Assembly: GCF_016783915.1 (NCBI RefSeq)
Contig: NZ_JADHVT010000030.1
Span: 1-40,747 of the forward strand
From: Acidovorax sp.
Lineage (GTDB): Bacteria; Pseudomonadota; Gammaproteobacteria; Burkholderiales; Burkholderiaceae_C
Length of the DNA stretch: 40,747 nt
Reading direction: 5' to 3'
Shown here in pieces: positions 2,982 through 34,394 of the stretch (within the stretch, counting starts at the first letter, position 1; every line of letters starts with the position of its first letter). The notes beneath the pieces were generated by a model. It saw only the letters and a program-made list of their open reading frames with translations. It had not been told where the DNA came from and did no database searches. The translations under genes and the position numbers were made by a program.

Positions 2982-3001
2982 GGGGGCTCCGGTGCGTCGG
3001 G

Positions 3002-10144: not shown

Positions 10145-10145
10145 T

Positions 10146-10250: not shown

Positions 10251-10299
10251 CTGCGCTCACCGCAGAGGCTGGTCGTTTCTTTCACCCACTGGCCCTTCC

Positions 10300-11880: not shown

Positions 11881-11900
11881 AGCACCAGAGACGACTGATC

Positions 11901-13974: not shown

Positions 13975-13988
13975 CATCCCAAGTCACC

Positions 13989-14681
13989 ATGCTCACCGTC
14001 CAGAACATCAACCAGTACTACGGCGGCTCCCACATCCTGCGTGACGTGAGCCTCACCGCCACCCCGGGCAAGGTCACCGTGCTGCTCGGCCGCAACGGCG
14101 TGGGCAAGACGACGCTGCTCAAAAGCCTCATGGGGCTGGTGCCCATCAAGAGCGGCAGCATCAGCTTCGACGGCAAACCCATCGACAAGGCCACGCCCTA
14201 CGACCGCGCGCGCGCAGGCATCGGCTTTGTGCCGCAAGGCCGCGAAATCTTCGGCCGCCTGACCGTGGAAGAAAACCTGCGCATGGGCCTGGCCTACAAA
14301 AGCGGCTCCACCCCTGTGCCCCCGCATCTGTACGAGCTGTTCCCCGTGCTCAAGCAAATGCTCAAGCGCCGGGGCGGTGACCTGTCAGGTGGTCAACAGC
14401 AGCAACTGGCCATTGCGCGTGCGCTGGCCCCCGGCCCGCGTTTGCTCATCCTGGACGAGCCCACCGAAGGCATCCAGCCCAGCATCATCAAGGACATCGG
14501 CCGCGTGATCCGCATGCTGGCCGACCAGGGTGAGATGGCCATCCTGCTGTGCGAGCAGTACTACGACTTCGCGCAGGAACTGGCCGATGAGTACCTGGTG
14601 ATGGAGCGGGGCGAGGTCATCGCCCGCGGGCCAGGTAGCGAGATGGAAGCCAAGGGCATTCGCAACCTGGTGGCCATCTGA
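13989..14681 (+). CDS. urtE: Urea ABC transporter, ATPase UrtE
   Basis: The second ATPase (230 residues) is LivF-like. Walker A is GRNGVGKTT (34-42), a UrtE hallmark. The Q-loop is FVPQGREIF, the signature LSGGQQQQLAIARAL and Walker B LLILDEP, followed by TEGIQPSIIKDIG. The switch region is LLCEQYYDFA, with Gln in place of the usual switch His in this alignment, as is common in LivF/UrtE. It is the last gene of the urea uptake operon. No urease gene follows it; its stop is 4 bases from the convergent PAP2 gene. Confidence 0.96.
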   Translation: MLTVQNINQYYGGSHILRDVSLTATPGKVTVLLGRNGVGKTTLLKSLMGLVPIKSGSISFDGKPIDKATPYDRARAGIGFVPQGREIFGRLTVEENLRMGLAYKSGSTPVPPHLYELFPVLKQMLKRRGGDLSGGQQQQLAIARALAPGPRLLILDEPTEGIQPSIIKDIGRVIRMLADQGEMAILLCEQYYDFAQELADEYLVMERGEVIARGPGSEMEAKGIRNLVAI

Positions 14682-21437: not shown

Positions 21438-22319
21438 TCAACTCCCGAATAGAAGCAACTCAAGATCTTCTCTGGCCGGTACTTTTTCTTCGTAAACCAT
21501 CTTGATAAGAACCCTCCTCAGAATTTCCAAGGAGTTAAGAAGATCATTGGCAGTGTGCTTGGGGGCTCCATGAGCTGCGGCTGACCGAGCATCGTAGAGT
21601 TTCATCGCTCGCTTGTGCTCAGCGATCCGAGGCGGTCCTGGTGGGTGAAGGTATGCGGCGATCATCGCTGACACTCGAAAGCGTAGTTCGCTTGTGGACG
21701 AGGTGAAGAGAGCCTCAAGAGCCGCCCACACCGAAACCAAACCAAGTGCGGAGCTGTGAATGAGCTGGACTTGAGCAATGGCATCAAGTCCCAGGCTAAA
21801 CGCGGCGCTTTGTTGTGTCAGATCAAGTGCGGTTTCCCAGTGCTTCTTGATCCAGTTCAAATCTTCCTTCGTGTCGCGTTCAGTTGCTGGATGAAGTTGG
21901 AAATACCATGGCTGAACTTCCACTGCATTCGCTACGTGTACACGAGAAACAGTCCCTGCTATCTTTTCTGGAGGCTCAGCGGACATCATCGTTAGGCGGA
22001 TGCGTGGATCAACCCACATTCGCATAAGCGCAGTGAGTCGCATCGCGACTTCCGAGGAGTTCATGCCCTGGCGCCTGTACGTCGAGGGAATATGAAGGAC
22101 AACATCGGAGTCAAACCCAAATCCATCGCCTGTTGCAGCCCAAGGACCTGGATGAGGCTGGTTCGGTTTCTCCGGCCGCTTGACCGCAAGCATGGTATGG
22201 GACATCACATGCGCGTAGGAGCGAGAGAGTGTGATTCCGTGCCCTAACTCAAAAGGCTCCTCACCAACAGCAATGGACGTCAAACAGCAGTACAGAGGGT
22301 GGGAATTTAGCTTTTCCAT
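21438..22319 (-). CDS. Hypothetical protein with Apea-like HEPN domain
   Basis: I do not recognise a named family for this 293-residue protein as a whole. The C-terminal ~110 residues look like an Apea-type HEPN domain. A helix SALGLVSVWAALEALF, with a conserved-type Glu (E202), is followed by FRVSAMIAAYL. Then comes LYDARSAAAHG with the R-x4-H signature (R245, H250) of HEPN ribonucleases, and a final helix LLNSLEILRRVLIKMV. The N-terminal ~190 residues are mixed alpha/beta with no motif I can name. There are no membrane segments. Base composition differs from its neighbours (28 G/C of 60 in 21841-21900 against 40 of 60 in 20881-20940), so it was probably acquired. Such genes often belong to defence or toxin-like functions, but no partner gene is present here. 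Confidence 0.7.
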   Translation of the reverse strand: MEKLNSHPLYCCLTSIAVGEEPFELGHGITLSRSYAHVMSHTMLAVKRPEKPNQPHPGPWAATGDGFGFDSDVVLHIPSTYRRQGMNSSEVAMRLTALMRMWVDPRIRLTMMSAEPPEKIAGTVSRVHVANAVEVQPWYFQLHPATERDTKEDLNWIKKHWETALDLTQQSAAFSLGLDAIAQVQLIHSSALGLVSVWAALEALFTSSTSELRFRVSAMIAAYLHPPGPPRIAEHKRAMKLYDARSAAAHGAPKHTANDLLNSLEILRRVLIKMVYEEKVPAREDLELLLFGS

Positions 22320-22447: not shown

Positions 22448-23284
22448 CTACATCGCCCAAATCCTAGGCGCCTCCCCCTCCAGTCCCCACAACACCTCCC
22501 GCCACGCCACGCGCACGGCCTTGAGCAGTTTCATCGCAGGCTCCACCTGCGGCGCCAACACGCGCACCACCACCATGCGATCGTTGGGGCTGGTGGCGCC
22601 AGCGGTGGACTTGACCTGGGGGTGCTGATCCATCACTGCACGGGCCGCGTCCAAGGCCGCGTCGCGGCGGGTGCGGTCCAGTGGCGTGCCTGCGGCAAGG
22701 AACATGCTGGCCATGCAACGGTGGCCCGCTAAACCCAAGGGGCTACTCAGCAGCCGGTCATCGGCGGCGTCGATCACGCCGCGCTCCAGCCACAGGCCGG
22801 GCACTTCCAGGTGCTGTGTGAAGCGGCCTTGTTCAAACGGCTGGCCCGCGTGCGGCAGGCCCAGCGCGGTCACGTCCCAGGCGATGCACTCGGCGCCGGG
22901 GGCGAGGTTCAGCGTGAGGTGGTTTTCAGCGTGGCAGGCGCTGTAGCACAGGGCTTCCAGCGGCAGCCATTCCAGGCGCGCGCCCTCGGCCAGGGTGAGG
23001 TGGCTGCGTTGCGGCGCCAGCGGGCCGGTGGAGCGGTAGAAGCGCGTGGCGCCGGGCGTGGTGACCAGGCCGTGGGCGCCGGGGCCCACGGTGGCGGTGA
23101 TGTCCAGCGTGTCGCCGCCCACCAGGCCACCGGGGGGGTGCACCAGCACGTTGTGGCAGATGGCGTCGCCCTCGGGGTACAGGCTTTGCAGGATGCGCAG
23201 CGGCCCGTTGTGCTCGTAGCGGGCTACCGTGCGGGCGTTGTGTTCTGCCGTGTAGTCGAGCTGAAGGCGGGCGTGCCAGGGCAT
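22448..23284 (-). CDS. ureD: Urease accessory protein UreD (UreH)
   Basis: This urease maturation chaperone (278 residues) joins UreF and UreG on apo-urease to deliver nickel. Family blocks are clear: GPLRILQSLYPEG, VHPPGGLVGGD, GAHGLVTTPGATRFYRS, ARLEWLPLEALCYS and the C-terminal end APRIWAM. Both ends are intact. Normally ureD is followed at once by ureA, ureB, ureC and then ureE, ureF and ureG. Here none of these is present: downstream lies the AT-rich HEPN stretch and then alaC in the opposite direction. Upstream, in the same direction, is an FAD oxidase. It needs urease genes elsewhere in the genome to be useful. Confidence 0.95.
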   Translation of the reverse strand: MPWHARLQLDYTAEHNARTVARYEHNGPLRILQSLYPEGDAICHNVLVHPPGGLVGGDTLDITATVGPGAHGLVTTPGATRFYRSTGPLAPQRSHLTLAEGARLEWLPLEALCYSACHAENHLTLNLAPGAECIAWDVTALGLPHAGQPFEQGRFTQHLEVPGLWLERGVIDAADDRLLSSPLGLAGHRCMASMFLAAGTPLDRTRRDAALDAARAVMDQHPQVKSTAGATSPNDRMVVVRVLAPQVEPAMKLLKAVRVAWREVLWGLEGEAPRIWAM

Positions 23285-23295
23285 GTTTCGGTGGT

Positions 23296-23347
23296 TTGCT
23301 ACTAAATGAGTAGCTGATTATGCCCTGCAGGTAAGCGGTAGAGGCCC
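23296..23347 (-). repeat. Interspersed palindromic repeat, family 1, copy F
   Basis: A 52-base copy between the FAD oxidase and ureD. It reads TGCTACTAAATGAGTAGC, then GATTATGCCC, then GGTAAGCGGTAGAGGCCC. It aligns in the same orientation with 13913-13974. The first block is a hairpin (GCTAC with GTAGC). Confidence 0.7.
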
Positions 23348-23376
23348 GTGGGTGCGACACGCGCCACCCGTTTTCT

Positions 23377-24765
23377 CTACGCTGTTTGGCGTACAGGTGT
23401 CTGCACGGGGGCTGTGGGTTCGGCCGTGTACCAGCTGCGCAGCTTGCCCGGGTTGAGCAGGCCCTGGGGGTCAAAGCGGCGCTTCATGCCCACCACGGCC
23501 GGGTCCAGGTTGTTCTGCTTGCCGTCTTCCACGATGTACACATGTGGGTTGTTGATCTGCACGCCGTGGTCGCGGTAGATCTGCATGATCTGGTTCAGGC
23601 GCTCTTCGGTGGTGTAGCGGATGATCTGCAGGCCGCTGCAGTTGAAGGCGCCTTCCTTGGTGCGCAAGAACTCCAGGTGCATCATCACCTCGCCCTTCAG
23701 CGCGGCCTCCAGCGCCTTCACCTGCTTGAGGCGGTGCATGGGGTTGAAGCCGCTCTGGATGTAGGTCAGGCCCTTGTCCACCTTGAGGGCGTGCAGGGTG
23801 GTGTGGTTCCAGGTGTATTCGAGCAGCGTCTTGTGGCTGCTGGCCACTTCGTCGGCCGTCTTGCGGTAGGTGACCTGGCCGCCGTGCTGCGCCACCATGT
23901 CGCGCATGCCGGCCTCGGAGTGCGGGGCTACCAGCAGCAGCACCGCGTGCTGGTCGGCAGGCAGGTGCTCTGCCAGACTGGTGAAGTACTGCGGGATGGG
24001 TGCAGCCAGAAAACACACCTCTTTTTTCTCCAGCCCGGGGGCGCTGCCAAAGCGGTCGGCAAACTCCAGCGCGGCGTCAAACTGCGCGAAGGTGGCGATG
24101 CATTCGGTCCACTCCACGGCAGGGGTCAGGGCCACTTCCAGCTCCAGAACGATGCCGTTGGTGCCGTAGGTGTGGTGCAGCAGCATGGCCTCGGGGCCGC
24201 GCAACTCGATGACCTGTGGCTCAGGCTCCACCGTCATCGCTCGCACGGCCAGCACGTTGCCGGGCGCGGCCAGCGGGCCGTGGTTGATGGAGCCTGCGCC
24301 CCCAAAGCCGCCGCCAAACAGCCCGCCCAGCGTGGCGCTGCGGTAGGTGCTGGGCAGCCAGCGCAGCTCTTGCCCGTGCGGCTTGGCCTGTGCGTCAAAG
24401 TCTGCCAGCCGGATGCCCGACTGCGCGCGGCCCACACCGCCGCGCACCCAGCCAAAGGCGTTGTAGCCCGACAGATCCAGGATCACGCCGCCGTGCAGTG
24501 GCGTGCTCTGGCCATAGTTGCCGGTGCCGCTGCCGCGCACGGTGAGGGCGATGCCCGCGCTGGCGCAGGCGGCCACTACCTGCCGGATTTCTGCTTCGGT
24601 GCGCGGGCGCACGGCGATGTCGCCGCGCTTGCCCGCCAGGTCGCGTTTGAGCACGGGGCTGAACCAGGCAAAGTCCTGCGAGAGGCGGCCCACGCGCAGC
24701 GGGTCGGCGATCCAGTCGAGGTCGGGCAGCAGGTCGGGCAGTTGATGGGCGGTGGTCGCGGTCAT
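23377..24765 (-). CDS. FAD-binding oxidase (PCMH/VAO type)
   Basis: This protein of 462 residues has an N-terminal FAD-binding PCMH domain. The pyrophosphate loop reads VRGSGTGNYGQSTPLHGG, the adenine region LRWLPSTYRSATLGGLFGGGFGG, and then SINHGPLAAPGNVL. The His that would anchor FAD covalently in the RGHG-type loop is Ser here, so FAD is probably non-covalent. The C-terminal half is a substrate cap (NHTTLHALKVDKGLTYIQSGF, then FDPQGLLNPGKL). There is no signal peptide. The start at 24765 has AGGAG upstream (CTCAGGAGATACGAC); the longer open frame upstream is Arg/Pro-rich spacer. The gene lies between the ABC permease and ureD on the same strand and probably oxidises a pathway intermediate. 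The substrate is unknown. Confidence 0.82.
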   Translation of the reverse strand: MTATTAHQLPDLLPDLDWIADPLRVGRLSQDFAWFSPVLKRDLAGKRGDIAVRPRTEAEIRQVVAACASAGIALTVRGSGTGNYGQSTPLHGGVILDLSGYNAFGWVRGGVGRAQSGIRLADFDAQAKPHGQELRWLPSTYRSATLGGLFGGGFGGAGSINHGPLAAPGNVLAVRAMTVEPEPQVIELRGPEAMLLHHTYGTNGIVLELEVALTPAVEWTECIATFAQFDAALEFADRFGSAPGLEKKEVCFLAAPIPQYFTSLAEHLPADQHAVLLLVAPHSEAGMRDMVAQHGGQVTYRKTADEVASSHKTLLEYTWNHTTLHALKVDKGLTYIQSGFNPMHRLKQVKALEAALKGEVMMHLEFLRTKEGAFNCSGLQIIRYTTEERLNQIMQIYRDHGVQINNPHVYIVEDGKQNNLDPAVVGMKRRFDPQGLLNPGKLRSWYTAEPTAPVQTPVRQTA

Positions 24766-24866
24766 GTCGTATCTCCTGAGGGCCGATGGGGCCGTTTTTG
24801 GGCGAAAGGGGGCCTGCACCGCGCAACCCGATGGTTGTGCGCGGTGTGGTGTCGGAAGTGTTGGGT

Positions 24867-25787
24867 TCAGTCCTGCGAGTTTTCGGAGGCGTGCCAGCCG
24901 CCGAGTGCTATGCGCGTGAGCCACGCCATCAGCACGAAGAGCGCGACGCCGGTGAGCGATATCAGCAGCAGTGCAGCAAACATGCGGGGGATGTTGAGCT
25001 GAAAGCCCGCCTGCAATATTTGGTATGCCAGCCCCGCACCCTGACCCCCGGTGCCCGCCACAAACTCAGCCACCACAGCGCCGATGAGAGCCAGGCCGCT
25101 GGAAATGCGCAGCCCGCCAAAGAAGTAGGGCAGCGCGCTCGGGATGCGCAGACGCAGCAGCGTCTGCAGCCGCGTGGCGCGGTTGAGCTGGAAGTAGCTT
25201 TGCAGGTCAGGCTCCACACTGCGCAAACCCAGCGTGGTGTTGCTGATGATGGGGAACAGGGCCACCAGTGCGGCGCAGATCACCATCGACGCCGTTGGGT
25301 CCTTCACCCAGATGATGATGAGCGGCGCCACGGCCACGATGGGCGTGACCTGCAGCAGCACGGCGTAGGGGAAGAGTGCGGTCTCGATGCGTTTGCTCTG
25401 AACGAACAGGAACGAGATGAGCACACCCGCCACCGTGGCCACCACAAAGGCCAGCACCGTGATCTTGACGGTGACCCACAGCGAGCCGCCCAGGGCGGCC
25501 CAGTCGGTGAACAGCGTCTTCATCATCAGGATGGGCGAGGGCACCAGGTAGGGTGGCAGCTCCATGGCCGTGACCAGCCCCTGCCACAGCGCGATCAGCA
25601 CCAGGCCGACCAGCACGGGGTAGACCACGCGCTGCACGCGGGGTTGGGCCATGAGCGGCGGGCGTTTGGGTGTGGCCTTGGCGGCAGGTTTGGCAGCGAC
25701 TGCTGCGGGCGCTGAGCGCGGGGCGGCTGCGGGGTGGGCGGTGACCACGGGCGACGCCATCGGTGCGGAAGGGAAGGGGGTGCTCAT
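24867..25787 (-). CDS. ABC transporter permease (SsuC/TauC, NMT1-type system)
   Basis: This inner-membrane permease has 306 residues and about six helices. An unusually long Ala/Pro-rich N-terminal tail (about 45 residues: SPVVTAHPAAAPRSAP...) precedes the first helix (VVYPVLVGLVLIALW). The EAA-like ATPase-contact loop is around LRLRIPSALPYFFGGLRISSGLALIGAVVAEF. It belongs to the taurine/nitrate/pyrimidine-precursor class. Its start overlaps the stop of the ATPase gene (ATGA at 25784-25787), so the pair is translationally coupled. It imports the ligand bound by the protein encoded at 26812-27810. Confidence 0.92.
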   Translation of the reverse strand: MSTPFPSAPMASPVVTAHPAAAPRSAPAAVAAKPAAKATPKRPPLMAQPRVQRVVYPVLVGLVLIALWQGLVTAMELPPYLVPSPILMMKTLFTDWAALGGSLWVTVKITVLAFVVATVAGVLISFLFVQSKRIETALFPYAVLLQVTPIVAVAPLIIIWVKDPTASMVICAALVALFPIISNTTLGLRSVEPDLQSYFQLNRATRLQTLLRLRIPSALPYFFGGLRISSGLALIGAVVAEFVAGTGGQGAGLAYQILQAGFQLNIPRMFAALLLISLTGVALFVLMAWLTRIALGGWHASENSQD

Positions 25788-26614
25788 GCCACGGTCTCCT
25801 CGGTGTCCACGCTGGCGCGCAGCAGGCTGTCCTGCAGCAGCTTGGCGTAGCGGCTGAATTCGGGCGACACCATGAAGTCGGCCGTGCGGGGGTAGGGCGC
25901 ATCGATGCGGAACTCTTCGACCACTCGGCCCGGGCGCGCAGCCATCATGACCACGCGGCTGGAGAGGAACACCGCCTCGTGGATCGAGTGCGTCACAAAG
26001 ATCACAGTGAGCTTCTTCTTGCGCCACAAGTCGAGCAGGTCAGCGTCGAGCTTGTGGCGAGTGATTTCATCCAGTGCGCCAAAGGGCTCATCCATCAACA
26101 GCAGGTCGGGCTGGGTGACCAGGCCGCGCGCAATCGATACGCGCATCTGCATGCCGCCGGACAGCGCGCGGGGCAGGGCGTTGGCAAACTTTGACAACCC
26201 CACCAGCGCCAGTGCTTCGGTCACGCGCGCATCGGCCTCGGCACGCGGCACGCCCGCCAGGTCCAGCGGCAGACGCACATTGGTCTGCACACTGGCCCAG
26301 GGCATGAGCGTGGGCGACTGGAAAACAAACGCCATCTTCTTGCCGCTTTCGTCCAGCTGCGCCACGGGCTTGCGCCACAGGTGTAGGCGGCCGTCGGTGG
26401 GCTCCAGCAGGCCCGCCACCATTTTCAGCAGCGTGCTCTTGCCGCAGCCCGAGGGGCCGAGCAGGGTGACGAATTCGCCTTCCTCAATGGTCAGGTCTAC
26501 CGGCAGCAGGGCCTGGGTGCCATTGGGGTAGGTTTTTTCGGCCGAGAGCACCTCCACGGCGGGTGTGGGGCGCGGCGCGGGTGCCAGAGGTGGCGAGGCA
26601 GCGGGAATGGACAT
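25784..26614 (-). CDS. ABC transporter ATPase (SsuB/TauB, NMT1-type system)
   Basis: This protein of 276 residues has Walker A GPSGCGKST at 53-61, Q-loop VFQSPTLMPW, signature RALSGGMQMRVSIARGL, Walker B LLLMDEP and switch VTHS. LSGGMQMR is the usual signature of the nitrate/sulfonate/taurine group. The N-terminal 20 residues are Pro/Ala-rich, like the tail of the permease. It follows the binding-protein gene after a 197-base gap that contains a family 2 repeat. Confidence 0.93.
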   Translation of the reverse strand: MSIPAASPPLAPAPRPTPAVEVLSAEKTYPNGTQALLPVDLTIEEGEFVTLLGPSGCGKSTLLKMVAGLLEPTDGRLHLWRKPVAQLDESGKKMAFVFQSPTLMPWASVQTNVRLPLDLAGVPRAEADARVTEALALVGLSKFANALPRALSGGMQMRVSIARGLVTQPDLLLMDEPFGALDEITRHKLDADLLDLWRKKKLTVIFVTHSIHEAVFLSSRVVMMAARPGRVVEEFRIDAPYPRTADFMVSPEFSRYAKLLQDSLLRASVDTEETVA

Positions 26615-26737
26615 GGTGGTGCCTTTCGATGGATGTGGCCGGGGAGGCTGGCCGCTGTGTCAGGGCGATGGGGCTTATCTGTCGTAGCGCTTGGCTTGGC
26701 GCCAGCCGCTGGAAACTGGCGCGGCCCGAGCCAGCGA

Positions 26738-26810
26738 ACGCCGAGCAAGGGCCGCCCCGCAGCGAGGGCGTTGTCCCCCTTGGGGGAAGGCGCGAAGCGA
26801 CTCAGGGGGG
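26738..26810 (-). repeat. Interspersed repeat, family 2, copy 2
   Basis: The reverse complement reads CCCCCCTGAG, TCGCTTCGCGCCTTCCCCC, AAGGGGGAC, then GGGGCGGCCCTTGC. This is the order found at 10146-10250. It lies between the binding-protein gene and the ATPase gene of one transporter. The CTTCCCCC/GGGGGAC part forms a strong hairpin in the transcript. It could lower ATPase and permease expression relative to the binding protein; that is inference. Confidence 0.65.
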
Positions 26811-26811
26811 A

Positions 26812-27810
26812 TCAAGGAAGAACCTTGAGGTCTTTGACGAACGACGTGGTGTAGGTCTCGGCCAGCTTCACCTTGGCAGGGTCGATGAGCTTGGCGTCCA
26901 CCAGGAAGTCGTAGCTGGCCTTGGCGCGCGCGTCGGTCATGATGCCGATGCCCATGGTGGTGGCATCGCCGCCCGTGGCCATGCCCATTTCCTTGAGCTT
27001 GGCCACGCTGTAGGCGAGCTGCTCGTCGGTCATGTTGGGGTTGTCCTTCTTGATGAGCGCGTTGGCGGGGGCTGGGTCTGCCAAGTAGCTCTTCCAGCCT
27101 TCCATCGACGCCTTCACGAACGAGGCCACAGCGGCGCTGCGGTCCTTCACCGTCTTTTCCATGCACGAGATGGTGGTGGCATAGGCGGGGTAGCCTTGGT
27201 CGCTGAACATCAGCGTGTTTGCCTTAACGCCCGCCTTGGCAATCGCAAACGGCTCGGACGTCAGGTAACCCTGCTGGGCGGAGTTCTTGTCAGCGACAAA
27301 GGGCTGGATGTTGAAGGTGTAGGGGCGGGTCTGCGAATCGGTGAAGCCGTACTTGGCCTTGAGCCAGGGCCAGTAGCCGCGCTGGGCCGACGAGGCGATC
27401 AGGATGGTCTTGCCCTTGAGGTCTTCGAATTTCTTCACGTCCTCGTGGGCGATGAGTACCTGCGGGTCCTTCTGGAACACGGCCGCCACGTTGACCACGG
27501 GCACGCCGCCTTCACGCATCTGGATCATCTGCAGGTCGCTCGACCCCATCACGCATTCGGCCTGGCCGGCGGCCATCATCTGCACGATGTTGACCTGCGG
27601 GCCGCCCATCTTGATGGTCACATCCAGCCCGTACTTTTTGTACAGGCCCGTGGCCACCGCCTGGTAGAAGCCGCCATGCTCGGCCTGCGCATACCAGTTG
27701 GTCATGTAGGTGAACTTTTCCTGCGCGTGGGCCTGCATGGTGCCGACGGCACCAACAGCGAGCAGCGCGGCTGCACCCAATTTGGAAAGGCGGGAGGCGG
27801 TCTTCATCAT
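26812..27810 (-). CDS. ABC transporter substrate-binding protein, NMT1/THI5-like
   Basis: This periplasmic binding protein has 332 residues. The Sec signal peptide (MMKTASRLSKLGAAALLAVGAVGTMQAHAQ) is cut after AHA. The mature part opens EKFTYMTNWYAQAEHGGFYQAVATGLYKKYGLDVTIKMGGP, the hallmark of NMT1/THI5-like proteins. These bind aromatic and heterocyclic ligands such as pyrimidine precursors, riboflavin, purines or nitrilotriacetate-like acids. Two adjacent ATG codons (27808-27810 and 27805-27807) are possible starts. It follows the creatininase gene by 86 bases. The ligand is probably the substrate of the amidohydrolases around it. Confidence 0.92.
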   Translation of the reverse strand: MMKTASRLSKLGAAALLAVGAVGTMQAHAQEKFTYMTNWYAQAEHGGFYQAVATGLYKKYGLDVTIKMGGPQVNIVQMMAAGQAECVMGSSDLQMIQMREGGVPVVNVAAVFQKDPQVLIAHEDVKKFEDLKGKTILIASSAQRGYWPWLKAKYGFTDSQTRPYTFNIQPFVADKNSAQQGYLTSEPFAIAKAGVKANTLMFSDQGYPAYATTISCMEKTVKDRSAAVASFVKASMEGWKSYLADPAPANALIKKDNPNMTDEQLAYSVAKLKEMGMATGGDATTMGIGIMTDARAKASYDFLVDAKLIDPAKVKLAETYTTSFVKDLKVLP

Positions 27811-27896
27811 GGTGGTACTCCGGTAGGGTGGTGGAGGTGGAACGAAGGGACAACGAAGGGGAAGGCGAAAAGGTTTTGCGGTGGCGTTCGCAGGTT

Positions 27897-28760
27897 TCAG
27901 GCCAGTGCGCTGGAGTGCTCCACGTGGCCGGTGTGATGGGCGCGGCCCCAGGTGGGCTCAGCGCGCGGTGCCCACTGCAACTTGTGCAGCTCGGCAATGG
28001 CGGCGGCCCAGCTCACGGCCAGCGAGTCGAGGATGGCGTGCCCTTGTTCGGCCGTGGCGGGAAGCGGGTCGCCAATGATTCCGCTGGGGCCGAAGTCGCG
28101 CGCACTCCAGGCGCAGGCCGGGCGGCCGTCGGGTGAGAGCAGGGGCGAGTCAAAAACGGGCGGGTAGTTGACTACCGCACGCTCCATGTGCACGGTGTCG
28201 GGGGCCAGCGCCAGCATCAGCGCCGTCTCGGCGTGGCCTGCGTGCATCGCCAGTTTCTTTTCGGTGTCGGACAGGTACTTGCCCGCCACATGCGGCACAC
28301 GCCAGGTGAAGCTGGGCACGACGATGAAGTCGCCATGGCGCAGGCGCAGCTCGCGCGCGCACATTTCCATCACCTGCGGCTGGCCGCCGTGGCCGTTGAC
28401 GAACAGCAGCTTGCGAAAACCCGCGCGGTATACCGACTCGCCCACCTCGTTCATGGTGGCCAGCAGGGTCTCGCCGCTCAGCGTGACGGTGCCGGGGAAG
28501 TGCAGGTGCTCTTCGGACTTGCCGTAGGTGATTGGCGCCATCGCAAACGCAGGCACATCGGCCGGCAGGCGCGCCAGCGCATGGCCCACCACACCCGCGC
28601 TGATCACCGTGTCCACCGCACAGGGCAGGTGCGGGCCGTGCTGCTCGGTGGCGCCCGTGGGCAGCACGATGACGGTGTTTTCCTTGTCGGGCAGGTCGGC
28701 GATCTCGGTCCAGCTCAGGTAGGGCAGGTAGCGGTGGGGCGGGTTGTAGCCGTGCAGCAT
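27897..28760 (-). CDS. Creatininase-family amidohydrolase
   Basis: This 287-residue metalloenzyme is of the creatininase/ArfB/MftE fold. Metal ligands are visible in VLPTGATEQHGPHLPCAVDT (Glu, His and Asp), LFVNGHGGQPQ and HAGHAETALML. Family members cut cyclic amides or formamides, such as creatinine or the formamido group in riboflavin and F420 synthesis. The length is near 260-290, as usual. There is no signal peptide. It starts 31 bases after the Rid gene on the same strand. The neighbouring cytosine-deaminase-like enzyme and NMT1 importer suggest ring opening of an imported heterocycle. Whether that is creatinine itself cannot be told. Confidence 0.9.
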   Translation of the reverse strand: MLHGYNPPHRYLPYLSWTEIADLPDKENTVIVLPTGATEQHGPHLPCAVDTVISAGVVGHALARLPADVPAFAMAPITYGKSEEHLHFPGTVTLSGETLLATMNEVGESVYRAGFRKLLFVNGHGGQPQVMEMCARELRLRHGDFIVVPSFTWRVPHVAGKYLSDTEKKLAMHAGHAETALMLALAPDTVHMERAVVNYPPVFDSPLLSPDGRPACAWSARDFGPSGIIGDPLPATAEQGHAILDSLAVSWAAAIAELHKLQWAPRAEPTWGRAHHTGHVEHSSALA

Positions 28761-28791
28761 GAAAGACTTTCGTGAAGGTGTTGGGGGTGTA

Positions 28792-29256
28792 TCAGCGCTG
28801 TGGCAGATAGGCCGTGGCTTCGACCTCGATCAGGATGTCGGGCGTGGGCAACATGCCGCTCACTTCCACTACGGTGGATGCGGGGGGCTCGCCGGGGAAG
28901 AACAGCTTGCGCACGCGGCTGTACTGTGGGAAGTGGTCCAGGTTCTTGAAGTACTGCACCAGCTTGAACACGTCGGACATCTGGCCGCCTGCGGCCTCGA
29001 TGGTCTGGCGGATGCGGTCGAGCACATACCAGCTCTGCGCGAGGATGGGGCCCTCCTTGATGTCGCTGCTGAACTCGCCCGTGCGGCCAATCAGCGTGGC
29101 GGCCTCATGCGGGATGTCGTCGTAGCCACGCACGATGCGGCTGGCGGCAGGGTCCACGGCAATGATCCCGCTCAGGTAGATGAAGTCGCCTGCGCGGCGC
29201 CATGCGGCGTAGCGGGCCAGGGGCTGGGCGATACCTGGCGCAGATGTGGGGCTCAT
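28792..29256 (-). CDS. Rid (YjgF/YER057c/UK114) family protein lacking the RidA arginine
   Basis: This 154-residue trimeric-fold protein has family blocks FIYLSGIIAVDP, VFKLVQYFKNLDHFPQYSRVRKLFF and ILIEVEATAYLP. In RidA the segment PARSxVEV carries the Arg that binds the imine carboxylate. The matching segment here is PPASTVVEV, with Ser at that position, so it is unlikely to be a true imine deaminase and may belong to one of the Arg-less Rid subgroups. Its start overlaps the stop of the amidohydrolase gene (ATGA at 29253-29256), so the two are co-translated. RutC of the pyrimidine pathway is a functional analogue by context. Confidence 0.88.
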   Translation of the reverse strand: MSPTSAPGIAQPLARYAAWRRAGDFIYLSGIIAVDPAASRIVRGYDDIPHEAATLIGRTGEFSSDIKEGPILAQSWYVLDRIRQTIEAAGGQMSDVFKLVQYFKNLDHFPQYSRVRKLFFPGEPPASTVVEVSGMLPTPDILIEVEATAYLPQR

Positions 29257-30572
29257 GCGAGGCTCCTTGTGGATTGGGTGGTTGGCACATGCCAGGCAGC
29301 CGGTGCATGGCCGCTGGCGACGCGGCCCTGGCGCAGCACCACACGGCTTTGTGCGCGCGATGGAAAGCCCCAGTGGTCAGCCTGCGTGAAGACCAGCAGG
29401 TCAGCCACCGTGCCAGGCTGCAGCGGCAGCGCCGTGGTGCCAGTGCGGCCGGTGCACAGCCAGTCGGCGCGGCACAGCGATTCGCTCCATTGGTCGAAAG
29501 GTGCATCCAGTTGCGCAGCCAGCACACCCGTGGCCAGGGCTTCCAGCGGGTCAAAGCTGCCCACGGGGCAGAACGGGTCTTGCACGTTGTCGCTGGCGAC
29601 CAGCACCGGGATGCCGCGTGCACGGGCCTCCTTCACCAGCGTCAGACCACGCTGGCGCGGCGTGCGGCCGGTGGTGGCGTCCTGCAGCAGCAGGTTGGTG
29701 ATGGGCAGCGTGACCAGGGTGATGGGGCTTTGTGCCACGGCATCGAGCGTGGCGAGGGCCGTGGCCTCGTCCTGTGCGGCCAGCGCGCAGGTGTGGCCGC
29801 AGACCACATGGCCTTCGAAACCCAGCTCCTTGAGCAGTGCGGCCGTGGTCGCCAAGCCCTGGGCGCCGGGGTGCAGTTCTTCGTCCACATGCAGGTCCAC
29901 GTTCAGCCCGTGGTGTTGTGCGGCTTCCAGCAGGTGGCGCAGCGCCTGCGGATCCCAGTTGGTGGAATGCACAAAGCCGCCCAGTAGTGCTCCGGGGCCG
30001 CTGGCGGCCACGGTGGCGGCCAGCCGTAGGGCAGCGCTGCGGTCTGCGTACAGGTGCAGGGGGATCAGGCTCACGCGCTCCAGCGTGATGCGGTCGGCCC
30101 AGTCGTGGGCCAGTGCGTGCAACACGTTCCAGGCCAGCGGCTGCGCGTCGGGCTCCCACCAGTCGCAGTGGGTGCGCAGGTGGACGGTGCCTGCGTCGTA
30201 GGCCCATTGCAGCGCGCGGCTGGCGCGGGCGTGGATGTCGGCTTCGGTCCAGCCCTGGCGATCCACCATCATGGCCTCGATGGCGCCCAGCAGGCCGGGT
30301 TTGACCTCTCCCATGCGCGGCAGGGTGAAGGCCTTGTCCAGGTGGGTGTGCGCATCGACCAGGCCGGGCAGCACCAGCGCGCCTGCCACGTCCCACACAG
30401 CGCCGTGTAGCGCAGGCTGGGTGCCGTGGGGCAGCACTTGCACGATGCGGCCCTGGGCCAGGCGCAGATCGGCCAGTGCGGGCTGGTGGCCCTGCTGCGG
30501 CCACGCGGAGGGCAGCAGCCAGCGCGGCAACCGGGCGCGCAGGATGTGGTCGGGGGTGTTGGATGCGTGCAT
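29253..30572 (-). CDS. Amidohydrolase, cytosine deaminase/creatinine deaminase-like
   Basis: This 439-residue cytoplasmic metal-dependent hydrolase is of the CodA group. Metal-binding motifs are DAHTHLDKAF (about residue 73), HVDE in LNVDLHVDEEL, GHTC in HVVCGHTC and the Asp in VASDNVQDPF. The DAHTHLDKAF start is characteristic of cytosine, creatinine and isocytosine deaminase-like enzymes. N- and C-terminal beta strands form the composite sandwich domain. It would deaminate or hydrolyse a ring C-N bond. It follows the flavodoxin-fold gene by 23 bases and overlaps the Rid gene by 4 bases. The length is slightly above E. coli CodA. Confidence 0.88.
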   Translation of the reverse strand: MHASNTPDHILRARLPRWLLPSAWPQQGHQPALADLRLAQGRIVQVLPHGTQPALHGAVWDVAGALVLPGLVDAHTHLDKAFTLPRMGEVKPGLLGAIEAMMVDRQGWTEADIHARASRALQWAYDAGTVHLRTHCDWWEPDAQPLAWNVLHALAHDWADRITLERVSLIPLHLYADRSAALRLAATVAASGPGALLGGFVHSTNWDPQALRHLLEAAQHHGLNVDLHVDEELHPGAQGLATTAALLKELGFEGHVVCGHTCALAAQDEATALATLDAVAQSPITLVTLPITNLLLQDATTGRTPRQRGLTLVKEARARGIPVLVASDNVQDPFCPVGSFDPLEALATGVLAAQLDAPFDQWSESLCRADWLCTGRTGTTALPLQPGTVADLLVFTQADHWGFPSRAQSRVVLRQGRVASGHAPAAWHVPTTQSTRSLA

Positions 30573-30595
30573 GCCGTGGCCCTTAGAACGTTGTC

Positions 30596-31183
30596 TTATG
30601 CAAAGCGCGCCATCGCCTGGCCCACGCGGGCCTTGAAGGCCGCCAGCCGGGGCGGTGTGGCCACGTTCATGTGGTAGTAGGCGTGGTAGTCCACCCGGGC
30701 CTTGCCGCCCGTGAGCAGGCGCATGTAGCGGGTGATGGACTTGCGCGGCGGGTCGCCCATGAACAGGGCCGTCCAGCGGGGGCGCCCGTAAGTGACCACG
30801 GCCGAGATGCGCTTGATGTGCGTGAGCGAGGGCTTGACGTTGTGCGGATCGCTGATGTCAAAGGCCACGCCGGGCATGAGCACGCGGTCGAAAAATCCCT
30901 TGAGCATCGCCGGCATGCCAAAGCACCAGGTGGGAAAGCAGAAGACCACGGCTTCGGCCCAGAGCAGGCGGTCCACATAGCCCTGCACGGGCAACTGGTT
31001 AGTGGGCACCTCGTGGTAGCCCAGGCGCTCTTCGCGTGTCATCACGGGGTTGAAGCCCTCGGCGTACAGGTCGCAGTCGTCCACCTCATGGCCCGCGCCG
31101 CGCAGCTGCTGCACCACCTCGGTGTGCAGGGCTGCGTTGTAGCTGGTCTCTACCGGGTGGCAATAGATCACGAGGATGCGCAT
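30596..31183 (-). CDS. NAD(P)H oxidoreductase, flavodoxin-fold (quinone reductase family)
   Basis: This protein of 195 residues begins MRILVIYCHPVETSYNAAL, the FAD/FMN phosphate-binding start of the NQO/MdaB/KefF family. It continues with AEAVVFCFPTWCFGMPAMLKGFFDRVLMPGVAF, the flavin-ring contact. The family reduces quinones or other acceptors with NAD(P)H. The start at 31183 is certain from homology; the open frame before it reads through the ferredoxin gene. It lies 32 bases after the ferredoxin gene, so it may supply electrons to that ferredoxin, but this is inferred from order only. Confidence 0.87.
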   Translation of the reverse strand: MRILVIYCHPVETSYNAALHTEVVQQLRGAGHEVDDCDLYAEGFNPVMTREERLGYHEVPTNQLPVQGYVDRLLWAEAVVFCFPTWCFGMPAMLKGFFDRVLMPGVAFDISDPHNVKPSLTHIKRISAVVTYGRPRWTALFMGDPPRKSITRYMRLLTGGKARVDYHAYYHMNVATPPRLAAFKARVGQAMARFA

Positions 31184-31215
31184 GGCGGGGGTCCTTCGGG
31201 TTGTGGGGGATGGGC

Positions 31216-31518
31216 CTACAGGTCCAGCGTGAGCGTGGCGCTGTGGCTGCGCGCGCAGCACACGGCGACGTGGGTGGCTTGCTCTGCAGCGCTCAGGCAG
31301 CTGTCGCGGTGGTCGGGCTCGCCGTCCAGCCAGCGGGTCACGCAGGTGCCGCACACGCCCTGCTCGCACAGGGTTTCCAGCGGTACGCCAGCGAGCTGCA
31401 GCACATCGGCCATGCTCTCGCCGGGGGCGACGGGCAAGCGCATCTGGCTGCGCTGCAGGATCAGCTCGAATGCGTGTTCTGTGCGGGCGGCGTCGGCGGT
31501 GTCAGGGGCTGTCTGCAT
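31216..31518 (-). CDS. Stand-alone plant-type (2Fe-2S) ferredoxin
   Basis: This protein of 100 residues has cysteine ligands at 51, 56, 59 and 87/88 (CEQGVCGTC and AVCCAR). The sequence, including DGEPDHRD and the end LTLDL, matches the C-terminal ferredoxin domain of phthalate dioxygenase/vanillate demethylase reductases. The FMN and NAD domains normally fused to it are missing; a flavodoxin-fold reductase gene follows instead. No Rieske oxygenase gene is in the window. It is the first gene after the RutR-like box, which lies 17-32 bases before its start. It may serve the 2-oxoglutarate-type oxygenase, the FAD oxidase or an oxygenase encoded elsewhere. Confidence 0.88.
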   Translation of the reverse strand: MQTAPDTADAARTEHAFELILQRSQMRLPVAPGESMADVLQLAGVPLETLCEQGVCGTCVTRWLDGEPDHRDSCLSAAEQATHVAVCCARSHSATLTLDL

Positions 31519-31534
31519 TGTTTGACCATGTGAT

Positions 31535-31550
31535 TTGATCGATTGGTCAA
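31535..31550. promoter_or_regulatory. RutR-like operator
   Basis: TTGATCGATTGGTCAA matches 14 of 16 positions (counting the two free ones) of the E. coli RutR box as I know it, TTGACCANNTGGTCAA. A further perfect half-site TTGACCA lies at 31522-31528, so the region may hold two overlapping sites. It is immediately upstream of the ferredoxin start (31518) and downstream of a TetR gene with a RutR-type ligand domain. The TetR protein is the obvious candidate to bind it. Confidence 0.55.
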
Positions 31551-31666
31551 ACTATTGCAAAGGCTGTGCCAGCCACAAAAAGCGGTCAAACGTCTTTGTG
31601 GTGGATCAACGCGGCCTGAAAGGGGCTTTTGACGCCGCGTGCTGGTGCAAATTGCCCGGGATTCGC

Positions 31667-31684
31667 CCCTCGGGCACCCGAGGG
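31667..31684 (-). terminator. GC-rich hairpin after the TetR gene
   Basis: CCCTCGG at 31667-31673 and CCGAGGG at 31678-31684 form a perfect 7-base stem with a 4-base loop. It begins 23 bases after the stop of the TetR gene on the minus strand. No U-run follows, so it may slow rather than stop transcription, or protect the 3' end. Confidence 0.35.
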
Positions 31685-31707
31685 ATGCCCAGAATGGGGC
31701 GGGGGCC

Positions 31708-32382
31708 TTAGTCTGGTGCGAGGCCGCAGCCCAGCAGCACAAAGCTGGTGAGTTCGCGCACGATGGGCTCGCGGTCGATGGGCTCGTCGGGCGCCAGGCC
31801 CAGCATGATGTGCACCTGCACGCCGTAGTCGGCGTAGTGCTGCGTCATGCCCCAGATCTGCATCAGCAAAACCTTGGCGTCCACCTTGCGCATGCGGCCT
31901 TCGGCAATCCAGCGGTTGATGAGGTCCACCTTCTGCTGGGTGGACTTGACGGCTACGGGCCAGTATTTGCCCAGGTTGCGCCCACCGCCCAGCACCTCGG
32001 TGGTGAAGATGCGCGACAGGCCCGGGTTGTCCAGCGCGTAGTCGAGTTTTTTGCGCACGTAGCTGCTCAACACCTTCTTGGGATCGTCGCTGTTGCTGTC
32101 AAAAATGAAGGCGCCCGACCAGCCGTTGAGCACCGAGTACAGCAGCTCTTCGTACAGCTCTTCCTTACTGCTGATGTAGTAGTGCAGCTGGGGCTTGGTC
32201 AGCCCGGCGCGCTCGGCAATGGCTTTGGTGGATGCCCCCTTGAAACCATGGCGACTGAACTCGGCAATGGCTGCCTCGCGGATGGCGCCCAAGATGCGTT
32301 CGCGCCCCTGTTTGGCGCGGCTGAGCAGCGCGCCGGAGGCGGCTTCGGCTTCGGATTCGGTCATGGCTTTGGTGCGAGGCAT
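31708..32382 (-). CDS. TetR-family regulator, RutR-like
   Basis: This protein of 224 residues has an N-terminal helix-turn-helix (AEFSRHGFKGASTKAIAERAGLTKPQLHYYISSKEELYEELL). The C-terminal domain resembles RutR/YcdC: the block IWGMTQHYADYGVQVHIML closely follows the RutR pattern IWxxTQHYADF. RutR binds uracil or thymine and controls pyrimidine catabolism. This homologue may therefore sense a nucleobase or a similar ring. It lies between the deaminase gene (49 bases upstream) and the ferredoxin-led series, with a RutR-like box in between. Autoregulation and control of both flanks are likely but not shown. Confidence 0.9.
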   Translation of the reverse strand: MPRTKAMTESEAEAASGALLSRAKQGRERILGAIREAAIAEFSRHGFKGASTKAIAERAGLTKPQLHYYISSKEELYEELLYSVLNGWSGAFIFDSNSDDPKKVLSSYVRKKLDYALDNPGLSRIFTTEVLGGGRNLGKYWPVAVKSTQQKVDLINRWIAEGRMRKVDAKVLLMQIWGMTQHYADYGVQVHIMLGLAPDEPIDREPIVRELTSFVLLGCGLAPD

Positions 32383-32431
32383 GTGGGGATTGCAGAGTGT
32401 GCGCCGCAGATTCTGCCCGCGCAGGAGTGGG

Positions 32432-32959
32432 TCAGACTTTCCAGAACCCGATATGGGGCGCGCTGGCTTCTTCGACCAGCGCCGGGCCGATGCATTCGAT
32501 GGCGTGGGGCGAGGCGGCAAACACGTCGCGGCACGACAGCTCGGCGTCGCGCTGTTCGGCCCGCTCGCCCCGGAACACGCGCAGGCGTTCGGCATCAATG
32601 CCGAACACCACGCGCCCAATGCCCGACCAGAAGATGGCGCCCGCGCACATCACGCAGGGCTCGGCCGAGGAATACAGCGTGGCCTTGGCCAGGGCATCGC
32701 GGCCCACACGCGGGCTGAGCTGGCGCACGGCATTGGTCTCGGCGTGGCCGGTGCAGTCGCCGGTCTCGGTGGTGTTGCAGTAGGCCTCGGCCAGCAGGCG
32801 CCCTTCGGCACTGATGACCACCGCACCAAACGGCCGGTTGCCGCGCGCGCGGGCCGTGCACGACCACGCGATGGCCTGGCGCAGGTAGGTGCCGTCGGTG
32901 TCGTTGATGGGGGTGGGGTCGTCAAAGCTGGCTGGGGGTGCAGACATGAGCGCGTGCAT
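32432..32959 (-). CDS. Nucleoside/nucleobase deaminase, CDA fold (guanine deaminase-like)
   Basis: This protein of 175 residues carries the zinc site HAE in CTGHAETNAVRQL and PCVMC in SSAEPCVMCAGAIFWSGIGRVVFG. These are typical of guanine deaminase (GuaD type) and tRNA adenosine deaminase-like enzymes. An N-terminal helix precedes NRPFGAVVI. The start at 32959 is preferred because GGAGA lies 10 bases before it; ATG 32947 has no Shine-Dalgarno sequence, and the frame upstream of 32959 is spacer. It would release ammonia from a ring amino group. It is divergent from the oxygenase gene and upstream of the RutR-like regulator on the same strand. Confidence 0.87.
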   Translation of the reverse strand: MHALMSAPPASFDDPTPINDTDGTYLRQAIAWSCTARARGNRPFGAVVISAEGRLLAEAYCNTTETGDCTGHAETNAVRQLSPRVGRDALAKATLYSSAEPCVMCAGAIFWSGIGRVVFGIDAERLRVFRGERAEQRDAELSCRDVFAASPHAIECIGPALVEEASAPHIGFWKV

Positions 32960-33055
32960 GGTGTAGGTGTCTCCGTCGATGGTGGGTGGTTGGCTGTCGT
33001 TTTGCAACGCCGGACTGTCTGCACGCCCGCCGTTGTGGCGCAGGGCGCTATGCAT

Positions 33056-33067
33056 TTGGCATGCCAA
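33056..33067. promoter_or_regulatory. Candidate operator palindrome
   Basis: TTGGCATGCCAA is a perfect 12-base palindrome about 100 bases upstream of the deaminase start and 330 bases upstream of the oxygenase start. ATGCAT occurs on both sides. Its position fits a repressor or activator site shared by the two divergent genes. The binding protein is unknown. Confidence 0.35.
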
Positions 33068-33250
33068 TCACAATCAGTGACATGTATGCATGGCTTTTGA
33101 TGCGCTGTGCACAAGCGCTCTTACCCTGCGTGAACACACAAGCAAGGCGCCGTGGGCATTCTTCTTGCATCGCTATTGGCAAGAGTAGAAGCGTTCACTG
33201 CATTGCCCCCTGTGCCATCCTGCGCGGGGAGGTGCCAGTCGGAAATTGCT

Positions 33251-33349
33251 CTTGAAGCCCGCTGTGCGCGCAGCGGTGTGCGTTTGCACACCGTGGCTTC
33301 AAGGGTTGAAAGGACGGCCGCCGCAGGCGGTGCCACCCACTCTTGAAGC
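33251..33349 (+). promoter_or_regulatory. Structured leader with alternative pairing upstream of the oxygenase gene
   Basis: An outer perfect 9-base stem, CTTGAAGCC (33251-33259) with GGCTTCAAG (33295-33303), encloses two hairpins: CGCTG/CAGCG (33260-33275) and CGGTGTGC/GCACACCG with loop GTTT (33274-33293). The two share two bases, so one must give way slightly; the result is a three-way junction. A second CTTGAAGC at 33342-33349 could take over GCTTCAAG (33296-33303). Between the two lies another hairpin, CCGCC/GGCGG, near 33318-33330. Mutually exclusive stems in a leader are the pattern of a riboswitch or attenuator. I could not match it to a known class. Confidence 0.45.
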
Positions 33350-33398
33350 ACCCAGCGGGAGGGCCTTTCTTCCTTCCACTTGTCTTCAGGAGAACTGC

Positions 33399-34394
33399 AT
33401 GACCACCACTGCCACCTACGACCTCGCCGAGCTGCAAAAAGAAACGCGCATGGGCGCGATGGGCTCGGAAACCGCGAGCCGCGAGATCCGCCGCATCGAC
33501 CTCAGCCACTTTGCTCAGCGCAAGACCGAGATTGCCGACCAGCTATGGGACGCCGCCGTCGATGTCGGCTTTTTCCAGATCGTGAACCACGGCATTGACC
33601 TGGCCGAGGTGCACAACGCCTTTGCGATGACCGAGCGTTTCTTTGCGCTGCCGGATGGCGTGAAGGCGCAGTACCCGCTCAAGAAGGCGCTCAACGTGGG
33701 CTGGGAGAGCCGCGCGCAGGTGCGCCCCTCCACTGGCACACCGGACCAGAAGGAGTCGTACCAGATCACCCGCCCGCACATGGCGGGCCTCTGGCCCACT
33801 GACGAGGAGCTGGCAGGCTTCCAGGCCACCATGCTCGCGTTTGAGGGCCAGTGCTGGCAGGTGGCCATGCAGGTGCTGTCGTGTTTTGCGTGGAAGCTGG
33901 GGTTTGACGAGGCCTTCTTTGCCCGCGCGCACGACCCTGCGCAGGCCAGCTACCAAAGCACCTTGCGCCTGCTGCACTACTTTGCGACCCCGCCCGAGCA
34001 ACAAGCCAGCCTGGGCCTGTGGCGCGCGGGGGCGCATACCGACTTTGATTGCCTGACCCTGCTCTTTCAGCGCCAGGGCCAGGGCGGCCTGCAGGTGTGC
34101 CCGGGCAAGGAGATGGACACCCAGGCCTGGACCTCGGTGGAGCCCGACGAGCAGGCCATCACCTGCAACATCGGGGACATGCTGATGCGCTGGAGCGACG
34201 ACCAGCTGCCCAGCAACTTCCACCGTGTGAAGAACCCTCTGCCCGGCGAGTACATGGGGCCGCGCTACAGCATCGCCTTCTTTGCCCAGGCCAACCGCGA
34301 CGCCATCATCGAAGGGCCCGGCAAGAAGTACCCGGCGATTGCCGCGGGCGACTACCTGAACCAGCGGGTGGCGGCTAACTTCAAGGCGTATTGA
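33399..34394 (+). CDS. 2-oxoglutarate/Fe(II)-type oxygenase, isopenicillin N synthase family
   Basis: This cytoplasmic non-heme iron oxygenase has 331 residues. The DIOX_N part opens IRRIDLSHF and has FFQIVNHGIDL. The catalytic part has the iron ligands HTD (AHTDFDCLTLL) and the distal His (SNFHRVKNP), with RYSIAFF carrying the 2-oxoglutarate-binding Arg and Ser. All are intact, so it should be active. Members include plant-type hydroxylases, the ethylene-forming enzyme and thymine or xanthine hydroxylase-like enzymes. AGGAGA precedes the ATG by five bases. It is divergent from the deaminase and convergent with otnI (21 bases between stops). Ring hydroxylation in the same pathway is a reasonable guess. 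Confidence 0.9.
   Translation: MTTTATYDLAELQKETRMGAMGSETASREIRRIDLSHFAQRKTEIADQLWDAAVDVGFFQIVNHGIDLAEVHNAFAMTERFFALPDGVKAQYPLKKALNVGWESRAQVRPSTGTPDQKESYQITRPHMAGLWPTDEELAGFQATMLAFEGQCWQVAMQVLSCFAWKLGFDEAFFARAHDPAQASYQSTLRLLHYFATPPEQQASLGLWRAGAHTDFDCLTLLFQRQGQGGLQVCPGKEMDTQAWTSVEPDEQAITCNIGDMLMRWSDDQLPSNFHRVKNPLPGEYMGPRYSIAFFAQANRDAIIEGPGKKYPAIAAGDYLNQRVAANFKAY

Follow-up and report, generated by a model that had tools for sequence, protein, structure and literature searches.

A conserved operon of import, oxidative and hydrolytic genes in Acidovorax, tentatively assigned to the catabolism of a pterin-like compound

The sequence studied here, a complete 40.7-kb contig of Acidovorax sp. (NZ_JADHVT010000030.1; 40,747 nucleotides, hereafter the window), carries a cluster of 13 genes, twelve of them on the minus strand and one, for a 2-oxoglutarate (2OG) oxygenase, diverging from these. 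The minus-strand genes encode a deaminase, a RutR-like TetR regulator, a ferredoxin, a reductase, two amidohydrolases, a Rid protein, an ATP-binding cassette (ABC) importer, a flavin adenine dinucleotide (FAD) enzyme and the urease accessory protein UreD (Table 1). A sequence-only reading had described this series and the diverging oxygenase, and Pfam scans agree with it in positions and families. Several mechanically called open reading frames (ORFs) are overlong, and the coordinates given here use likely starts.

Table 1. Features of the cluster in the window, with Pfam families and scores.
Feature	Position	Strand	Family, score or remark
Fe(II)/2OG oxygenase	33399..34394	+	DIOX_N and 2OG-FeII_Oxy; divergent
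CDA-fold deaminase	32432..32959	-	dCMP_cyt_deam_1, 74.3 bits
RutR-like TetR regulator	31708..32385	-	TetR_C_3, 106.3 bits, and TetR_N
RutR-type operator-like palindrome	31534..31551	.	15 bp upstream of ferredoxin start
[2Fe-2S] ferredoxin	31216..31518	-	Fer2, 41.7 bits
Flavodoxin-fold NQO-like reductase	30596..31183	-	Flavodoxin_2, 105.9 bits
CodA-like amidohydrolase (AHY)	29253..30572	-	Amidohydro_3, 82.9 bits
Arg-less Rid protein	28792..29256	-	Ribonuc_L-PSP, 61 bits
Creatininase-family amidohydrolase	27897..28760	-	Creatininase, 242.5 bits
NMT1-type substrate-binding protein	26812..27810	-	NMT1, 107 bits
ABC importer ATPase	25784..26614	-	ABC_tran, 121.8 bits
ABC importer permease	24867..25790	-	BPD_transp_1, 82.1 bits
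FAD enzyme, relative of 6v42	23377..24765	-	FAD_binding_4, 78.1 bits
ureD, urease accessory protein	22448..23284	-	UreD, 169.7 bits (Pfam gathering score 27); last of series

The same gene set was looked for in other Burkholderiales, as the sequence-only reading had suggested. A scan of named genomes with an amidohydrolase profile gave 80 loci (L numbers below), 58 of which are from Burkholderiales (L009-L066; 42 with full flanks and 16 with short ones). Among the named relatives of the amidohydrolase, those from Acidovorax head the match lists, and the host is accordingly Acidovorax-like. Six core genes, for the amidohydrolase, the creatininase-family enzyme, the three importer proteins and the FAD enzyme, are complete and co-directional in 41 of the 42 loci with full flanks, the exception being L034. 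Across all 58 loci, co-directional genes were counted for the binding protein in 57, the creatininase-family enzyme in 56, the ATPase in 55, the permease in 54, the FAD enzyme in 52, the flavodoxin-fold reductase in 48, TetR in 46, Rid in 35, the deaminase in 23, the ferredoxin in 17 and ureD in 12, and a 2OG gene lies nearby in 11. We also searched 200 sampled genomes of the family (G numbers below), the host among them, for the amidohydrolase, creatininase-family and FAD genes. These genes, at identities of at least 59%, 70% and 58%, are present in 14, 17 and 20 genomes, respectively, as nested sets, although only some amidohydrolase and FAD enzyme candidates were scored per genome (8 in most rows), and absences are therefore not firm. 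All 14 amidohydrolase-bearing genomes have the other two genes, at these identities, on the same contig and within ~8 kb. Three genomes (G064, G101, G109) keep the creatininase-family and FAD genes, with the amidohydrolase not among the candidates scored. Rearranged versions of the set were found in Rhodobacteraceae, Klebsiella, Pantoea, Rahnella, Rhizobium and Pseudosulfitobacter, a less complete form in Ancylobacter, and a form with a 2OG enzyme but lacking the amidohydrolase in Agrobacterium; the grouping is kept across beta-, gamma- and alphaproteobacteria.

It is hardly credible that the genes belong to unrelated pathways and are neighbours by accident. The ureD, ferredoxin, 2OG, deaminase and Rid genes do differ among loci, but the co-directional core of the full-flank loci, the constant presence of its partners in the amidohydrolase-bearing family genomes and the rebuilding of the same set in different gene orders in other bacteria argue against chance. 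We conclude that the window cluster is a real, conserved catabolic operon. The earlier proposal of one functional unit, in which import, oxidative and hydrolytic enzymes stand under a RutR-like regulator, is borne out by these comparisons.

The TetR protein scores 129 bits against the RutR equivalog model, under the cut-off of 368. The palindrome upstream of the ferredoxin gene has 2 mismatches in 16 positions to the RutR operator consensus, which we take to be TTTGACCANNTGGTCAAA. Scanning of 450-bp upstream windows at the 58 Burkholderiales loci (26.1 kb in total) identified operator-like sites, with at most 4 of 16 mismatches to this consensus, before the operon in 43 loci, compared with 35 sites in 1066 kb elsewhere. 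A site is present in 39 of the 46 loci with tetR, and the two disagree in 11 loci, seven having tetR without a site and four a site without tetR. In five of the seven siteless loci (L026, L047, L054, L059 and L061), a site precedes a gene that the script had not taken as first. The concentration of sites there suggests that either the ferredoxin or the reductase gene is probably the first of the regulated operon, with the deaminase and tetR genes as a separate unit. The single co-directional series described earlier holds for gene direction, whereas transcription probably proceeds in two units, deaminase-tetR and ferredoxin to ureD. The repressor would probably sense an intermediate of the 2,4-dioxo-pyrimidine type.

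In having a TetR_C_3 regulator, a RutR-type operator-like site and a Rid protein, the window resembles the Rut pathway and the RutR regulon. It differs from these in the low score of its regulator and in a Rid protein that reaches 49 bits where the RutC model requires 169, and no other Rut model matched any of the 10 window proteins scanned with curated models. Similarly, the creatininase-family enzyme keeps the metal-site residues known from creatinine degradation (E39, H41, D50, H124 and E178, in 64-65 of 65 loci), but scores 103 bits against the TIGR04448 creatininase cut-off of 235 and falls below the MftE and IolN equivalog cut-offs as well. The creatinine and uracil (Rut) readings were thus rejected on curated cut-offs, and the statement that this is neither a Rut nor a creatinine set stands. 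The designation of the Rid protein as Arg-less also proved correct: the position aligned by eye with the motif that we take to contain Arg105 of RidA is Met in 30, Phe in 9 and Leu in 4 loci, which accounts for all 43. Arg105 is treated as an important residue of RidA in a passage of PMC4433059. The nearest solved chain to the Rid protein is 3lyb (225 bits). In the ferredoxin, three cysteines are present in 21 of 21 matches and the fourth in 18.

The CodA-like amidohydrolase falls into clade A of the amidohydrolase tree, a long-stemmed group (support 100/100) that takes in 47 of the 88 rows. This clade also holds enterobacterial and pADP-1 proteins and has type B as its neighbour. Eighteen rows (16 Variovorax, one Xylophilus and one Hydrogenophaga) were removed before the tree was built, and the tree carries warnings for long branches and odd composition. 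H75, H77, H228, E231, H260 and D328, the metal-binding and catalytic residues, are present in 64 of 64 loci. Cytosine deaminase was rejected as a function, given a score of 331 bits against the PRK07583 cut-off of 403 and a difference at an active-site Gln. This residue, presumably the one that binds cytosine in CodA, aligns with Pro in 11 of the 15 clade-A rows and with Gln in none.

A single-ring pyrimidine or imidazole, such as thymine, 5-methylcytosine, the thiamin pyrimidine, creatinine or a hydantoin, is in our view an improbable substrate, although the compounds proposed for growth tests in the sequence-only reading point to this type. The RutR-like regulator with its operator-like site would suit such a compound, the nearest NCBIfam families include cytosine deaminase and creatininase, the 2OG enzyme is nearest to thymine dioxygenase (5c3p, its best solved relative, 117 bits), and the binding protein distantly resembles a thiamin-pyrimidine-binding protein (its nearest solved chains are 4nmy, at 41 bits, and the pyrimidine-binding 3ix1, at 36 bits). 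However, the curated equivalog cut-offs for cytosine deaminase and creatininase are not reached, the CodA Gln is replaced, and the D-hydantoinase model gives 27 of 393 bits. Nothing was found for the thiamin pyrimidine reading in the open-licence PMC literature.

The FAD enzyme has one close solved relative, 6v42, which shares its fold across nearly the full length and is titled in the PDB as a flavin oxygenase 'involved in folate catabolism'; 6v43 is a further PDB entry for this oxygenase. FAD enzymes of Rhizobium, Ancylobacter and Phreatobacter are 63-65% identical to 6v42, those of the rhizobial clusters 65%. As in the window, the Rhizobium clusters have a CodA-like amidohydrolase, a creatininase-family enzyme, a Rid protein, a flavodoxin-fold reductase and an NMT1 importer; they differ in the FAD enzyme, in gene order and in having a LysR regulator in place of the RutR-like TetR, and many loci of the window clade add an oxygenase and an extra deaminase. 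A further likeness is to the pterin deaminases PDA (Variovorax sp. F1) and Arad3529 (Agrobacterium), both CodA-like amidohydrolases. The next gene after that for PDA encodes a Rid protein ('endoribonuclease'), as in the window and L108-L110, whereas the window amidohydrolase lies in a separate long-stem clade and lacks the common residues of related clades, PDA and Arad3529 being placed by description. One cluster type that is sister to that of the window matches what has been described for a pterin deaminase from Variovorax.

From these sequence comparisons, we read the window cluster as a probable paralogous sister of a bacterial folate/pterin catabolic cluster, with its own clade and exchanged enzymes. 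Our preferred but tentative proposal, to which we give close to an even chance, is that it forms an inducible operon for the uptake and breakdown of a pterin-like compound, that is, a fused ring with the 2-amino-4-oxo-pyrimidine part common to pterins and guanine. Because of this common feature and the folate-type FAD enzyme, a pterin would be the first choice and a guanine derivative the second. We found no description of the gene set in the open-licence PMC literature; the system called undescribed in the sequence-only reading is nevertheless not isolated, as it belongs to a clade of cluster types with a relative tied to folate/pterin breakdown.

Several observations weigh against a pterin-like substrate. 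The folate link is the PDB entry title of 6v42, to which the window FAD enzyme is just 41% identical, and no second FAD enzyme of the family was found at E<=1e-60 among the candidates scored in the host. No folate-specific gene (e.g. carboxypeptidase G) was seen among the genes scanned, with no search aimed at any. The deaminase is no closer to guanine deaminase than to others, and its nearest solved chains are CMP/dCMP-deaminase-named (63.7 bits), guanine deaminase (63.2 bits) and TadA-type (60 bits). Loci L102 and L103 hold the remaining set without a window-type amidohydrolase, and ureD is lineage-specific, being attached in nine Acidovorax loci and in L019-L021. In addition, the window amidohydrolase differs from related clades near active-site motifs, with Leu295 in place of Tyr, Ala263 in place of Ser and Glu232 in place of Gly, Thr or Ser. 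Position 295 is Leu in 14 of 15 window-type rows versus Tyr in 19 of 19 rows of clades B and R, which presumably include the pterin deaminases, and position 263 is Ala in 15 of 15 versus Ser in 19 of 19, both presumably in the pocket. These differences speak against counting the window enzyme among the pterin deaminases, although the positions of PDA and Arad3529 in these clades are presumed, and its substrate may differ from that of the related clades.

It is a serious possibility, if somewhat short of an even chance, that the cluster encodes a separate, undescribed route for a heterocycle other than folate, in which a fixed core is combined with exchanged enzymes. Candidate substrates would be, for example, isoxanthopterin or some other pterin in oxidised or alkylated form, or a methylated guanine. 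In this cluster type, found in many Comamonadaceae and in Klebsiella, the core consists of the flavin oxygenase together with the creatininase-family enzyme and the importer. If such a route exists, bacterial pteridine breakdown, a subject of old biochemistry to which no genes are assigned as far as we know, would gain its genes.

Window-type and 6v42-type FAD enzymes share a cluster in L023 (14801-17619), L102 (from 10470), L104 and L105, and in L023 and L102 the two types are side by side, as if sequential in action.

Enzyme exchange was analyzed in 70 loci, comprising L009-L066, the window and 11 later-chosen plasmid and family loci (L067-L088 and type-B loci were left out). Identity thresholds were at least 50% for the window-type deaminase, the 2OG oxygenase and the Rieske oxygenase, 45% for the PRK12393 amidohydrolase, 40% for the flavodoxin-fold reductase and 35% for the VanB-type reductase. 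The window-type deaminase is present in 25 loci and PRK12393 in 11, the 2OG oxygenase in 13 and an NdmA-like Rieske oxygenase in 11, and the flavodoxin-fold reductase in 53 and the VanB-type reductase in 7; both members of a pair occur together in no locus. Four oxygenase-deaminase combinations occur, in 11, 5, 2 and 6 loci. Fisher tests that treat related loci as independent give p 0.006 for the deaminases and p 0.11 for the oxygenases. It is the absence of loci with both members and the occurrence of four combinations, not the p values, that we take as a sign that each pair performs one step. A simple swap is opposed by the stretches examined that have neither deaminase (34 of 70, 23 of them Variovorax by title), neither oxygenase (46) or neither reductase (10), and by distant paralogues in L019-L021, where a second CDA deaminase (deam2) lies beside PRK12393 and a second 2OG enzyme (2OG2) beside the Rieske gene, the latter also in L102. 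The cluster may be regarded as a natural experiment, with unrelated enzymes apparently taking each other's place at the same step.

The HTD, H and R motifs of the 2OG oxygenase are kept in all 13 loci covered by the alignment, of 14, and the HAE and PCxxC motifs of the deaminase in 25 of 25. The Rieske alternative is closest to the methylxanthine demethylase NdmA (150 bits); NdmA and thymine dioxygenase both act on ring substituents. Against the 8-oxoguanine deaminase model, the Klebsiella PRK12393 protein reaches 375 bits, which is under the cut-off; a PRK12393 structure model (mean predicted local distance difference test score 47.2) was too poor for a fold search. A passage in a review names isoxanthopterin and pterin-6-carboxylate as further substrates of the 8-oxoguanine deaminase family. 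On pRL12 of Rhizobium johnstonii 3841 (L099, 2115-6896), the folate-type cluster adjoins genes annotated as members of the xanthine dehydrogenase (molybdenum hydroxylase) family, possibly a third kind of ring-oxidising enzyme.

These relatives also bear on a purine substrate, e.g. a guanine that RNA turnover yields in methylated or oxidised form, which we regard as rather unlikely. Here, the oxygenase would demethylate or hydroxylate the purine, and the deaminase would convert it to a compound of the xanthine or urate type; ring opening would fall to the FAD, creatininase-family and Rid proteins. The NdmA and 8-oxoguanine deaminase similarities, the R. johnstonii genes and the guanine-binding importer protein AtzT of pADP-1 (reported KD ~110 nM) are consistent with this. 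On the other hand, the one close solved relative of the FAD enzyme is a folate-catabolism enzyme, and neither a urate oxidase nor an allantoinase gene appeared in the window cluster or among the annotated neighbours, with no search aimed at either. On pADP-1 (L089, 11959-13290), the gene directly 3' of the AtzT importer genes encodes an amidohydrolase 54% identical to that of the window. This atzTUVW region resembles the window in pairing such an amidohydrolase with an importer but differs in that no other member of the set is annotated there. The AtzT paper uses neither the word 'amidohydrolase' nor the word 'deaminase' in its main text.

An s-triazine, or another synthetic N-heterocycle, was also weighed as substrate, since the pADP-1 relative adjoins the cyanuric acid operon and the cluster of Rhizobium etli has a biuret hydrolase gene in its vicinity. 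We consider this very improbable: clade A is long-stemmed and spans Comamonadaceae and enterobacteria, which would make it too old for a recent xenobiotic trait, and the annotated 25 kb of pADP-1 have just one gene of the set.

Under the preferred proposal of a pterin-like substrate, the NMT1-type ABC importer would bring in the compound, and the 2OG oxygenase, or the NdmA-like Rieske enzyme in other species, would oxidise a ring position or side chain. The CDA-fold deaminase (an 8-oxoguanine-deaminase-like enzyme in other species) may then remove the exocyclic amine. Probably with electrons from the NQO-like or VanB-type reductase, the FAD enzyme would oxygenate the ring. Hydrolysis of C-N bonds would fall to the amidohydrolase and the creatininase-family enzyme, and the Rid protein could handle an unstable imine or enamine. 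In Acidovorax, urea from the pyrimidine half may finally pass to urease, which would explain ureD as the last gene.

The claim that the pathway ends in urea is weakly supported. In its favor, no ureD other than that of the window was found in the host genome, where ureC lies on another contig, and urtA to urtE-like genes for a urea-type ABC importer are located at 8735-14681 on the plus strand of the window, 8-14 kb from the cluster. Against it, ureD is present in just 12 of the 58 loci; because 46 lack it, ureD appears to be a lineage addition and no defining part of the cluster. No ureA, ureB or ureC was found beside the cluster in any of the 80 loci. The usual urease gene order is ureDABC. 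Further in favor of urea, among 14 genomes reached via the loci (L017 was left out), ureD is single in 13, and in 10 the sole copy found is that of the cluster. Of these ten, nine have ureD and ureC on the same contig and strand, 17 to 52 kb apart, and one (G203) on separate contigs. The genomes of L013, L018 and L032 have ureD outside the cluster, likewise 17-32 kb from ureC, and the distance is therefore no evidence for coupling of ureD to the cluster. Indeed, ureD is far from ureC (17-52 kb where both are on one contig) in nearly all genomes checked behind L009-L032, L065 and L066 (G200-G213), and the L029 genome has an additional ureD/ureC set ~4 kb apart. A urea or ureido compound as product is plausible. 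Genes for biuret hydrolase, urea carboxylase and allophanate hydrolase flank the folate-type cluster on plasmid pC of Rhizobium etli (L092), a possible route for ureido products; two other Rhizobium records have no urea genes beside the related cluster.

Within the nitrogen cycle, the breakdown of folate, pterins and modified guanines is poorly charted, and the Discussion of PMC9513972 asks whether and how bacteria degrade the pteroate and deaminopteroate left by Variovorax. The cluster is small enough to be tested as a whole in bacteria that can be cultured, and it unites in a single pathway proteins whose present annotations are cytosine deaminase, creatininase and FAD oxidoreductase.

Additional features were noted in and around the cluster. 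Between an aminotransferase gene and ureD, the window has a 293-amino-acid ORF (21438-22319) with no Pfam match, possibly a recent insert. The C-terminal part of another window ORF (2520-4736) matches the [2Fe-2S] domains (Fer2 and Fer2_2) of molybdenum hydroxylases, for which N-heterocycles are frequent substrates. An extra module, not present in the window, occurs beside the cluster in L009 (3538-6084), L010, L016, L019-L021, L024 and L102. It encodes a second NMT1 binding protein, a second 2OG oxygenase and a glyoxalase-like protein, with another CDA deaminase and importer genes in some loci. In G105 (contig C12, 256763-270945), the window-type cluster occurs twice, in tandem.

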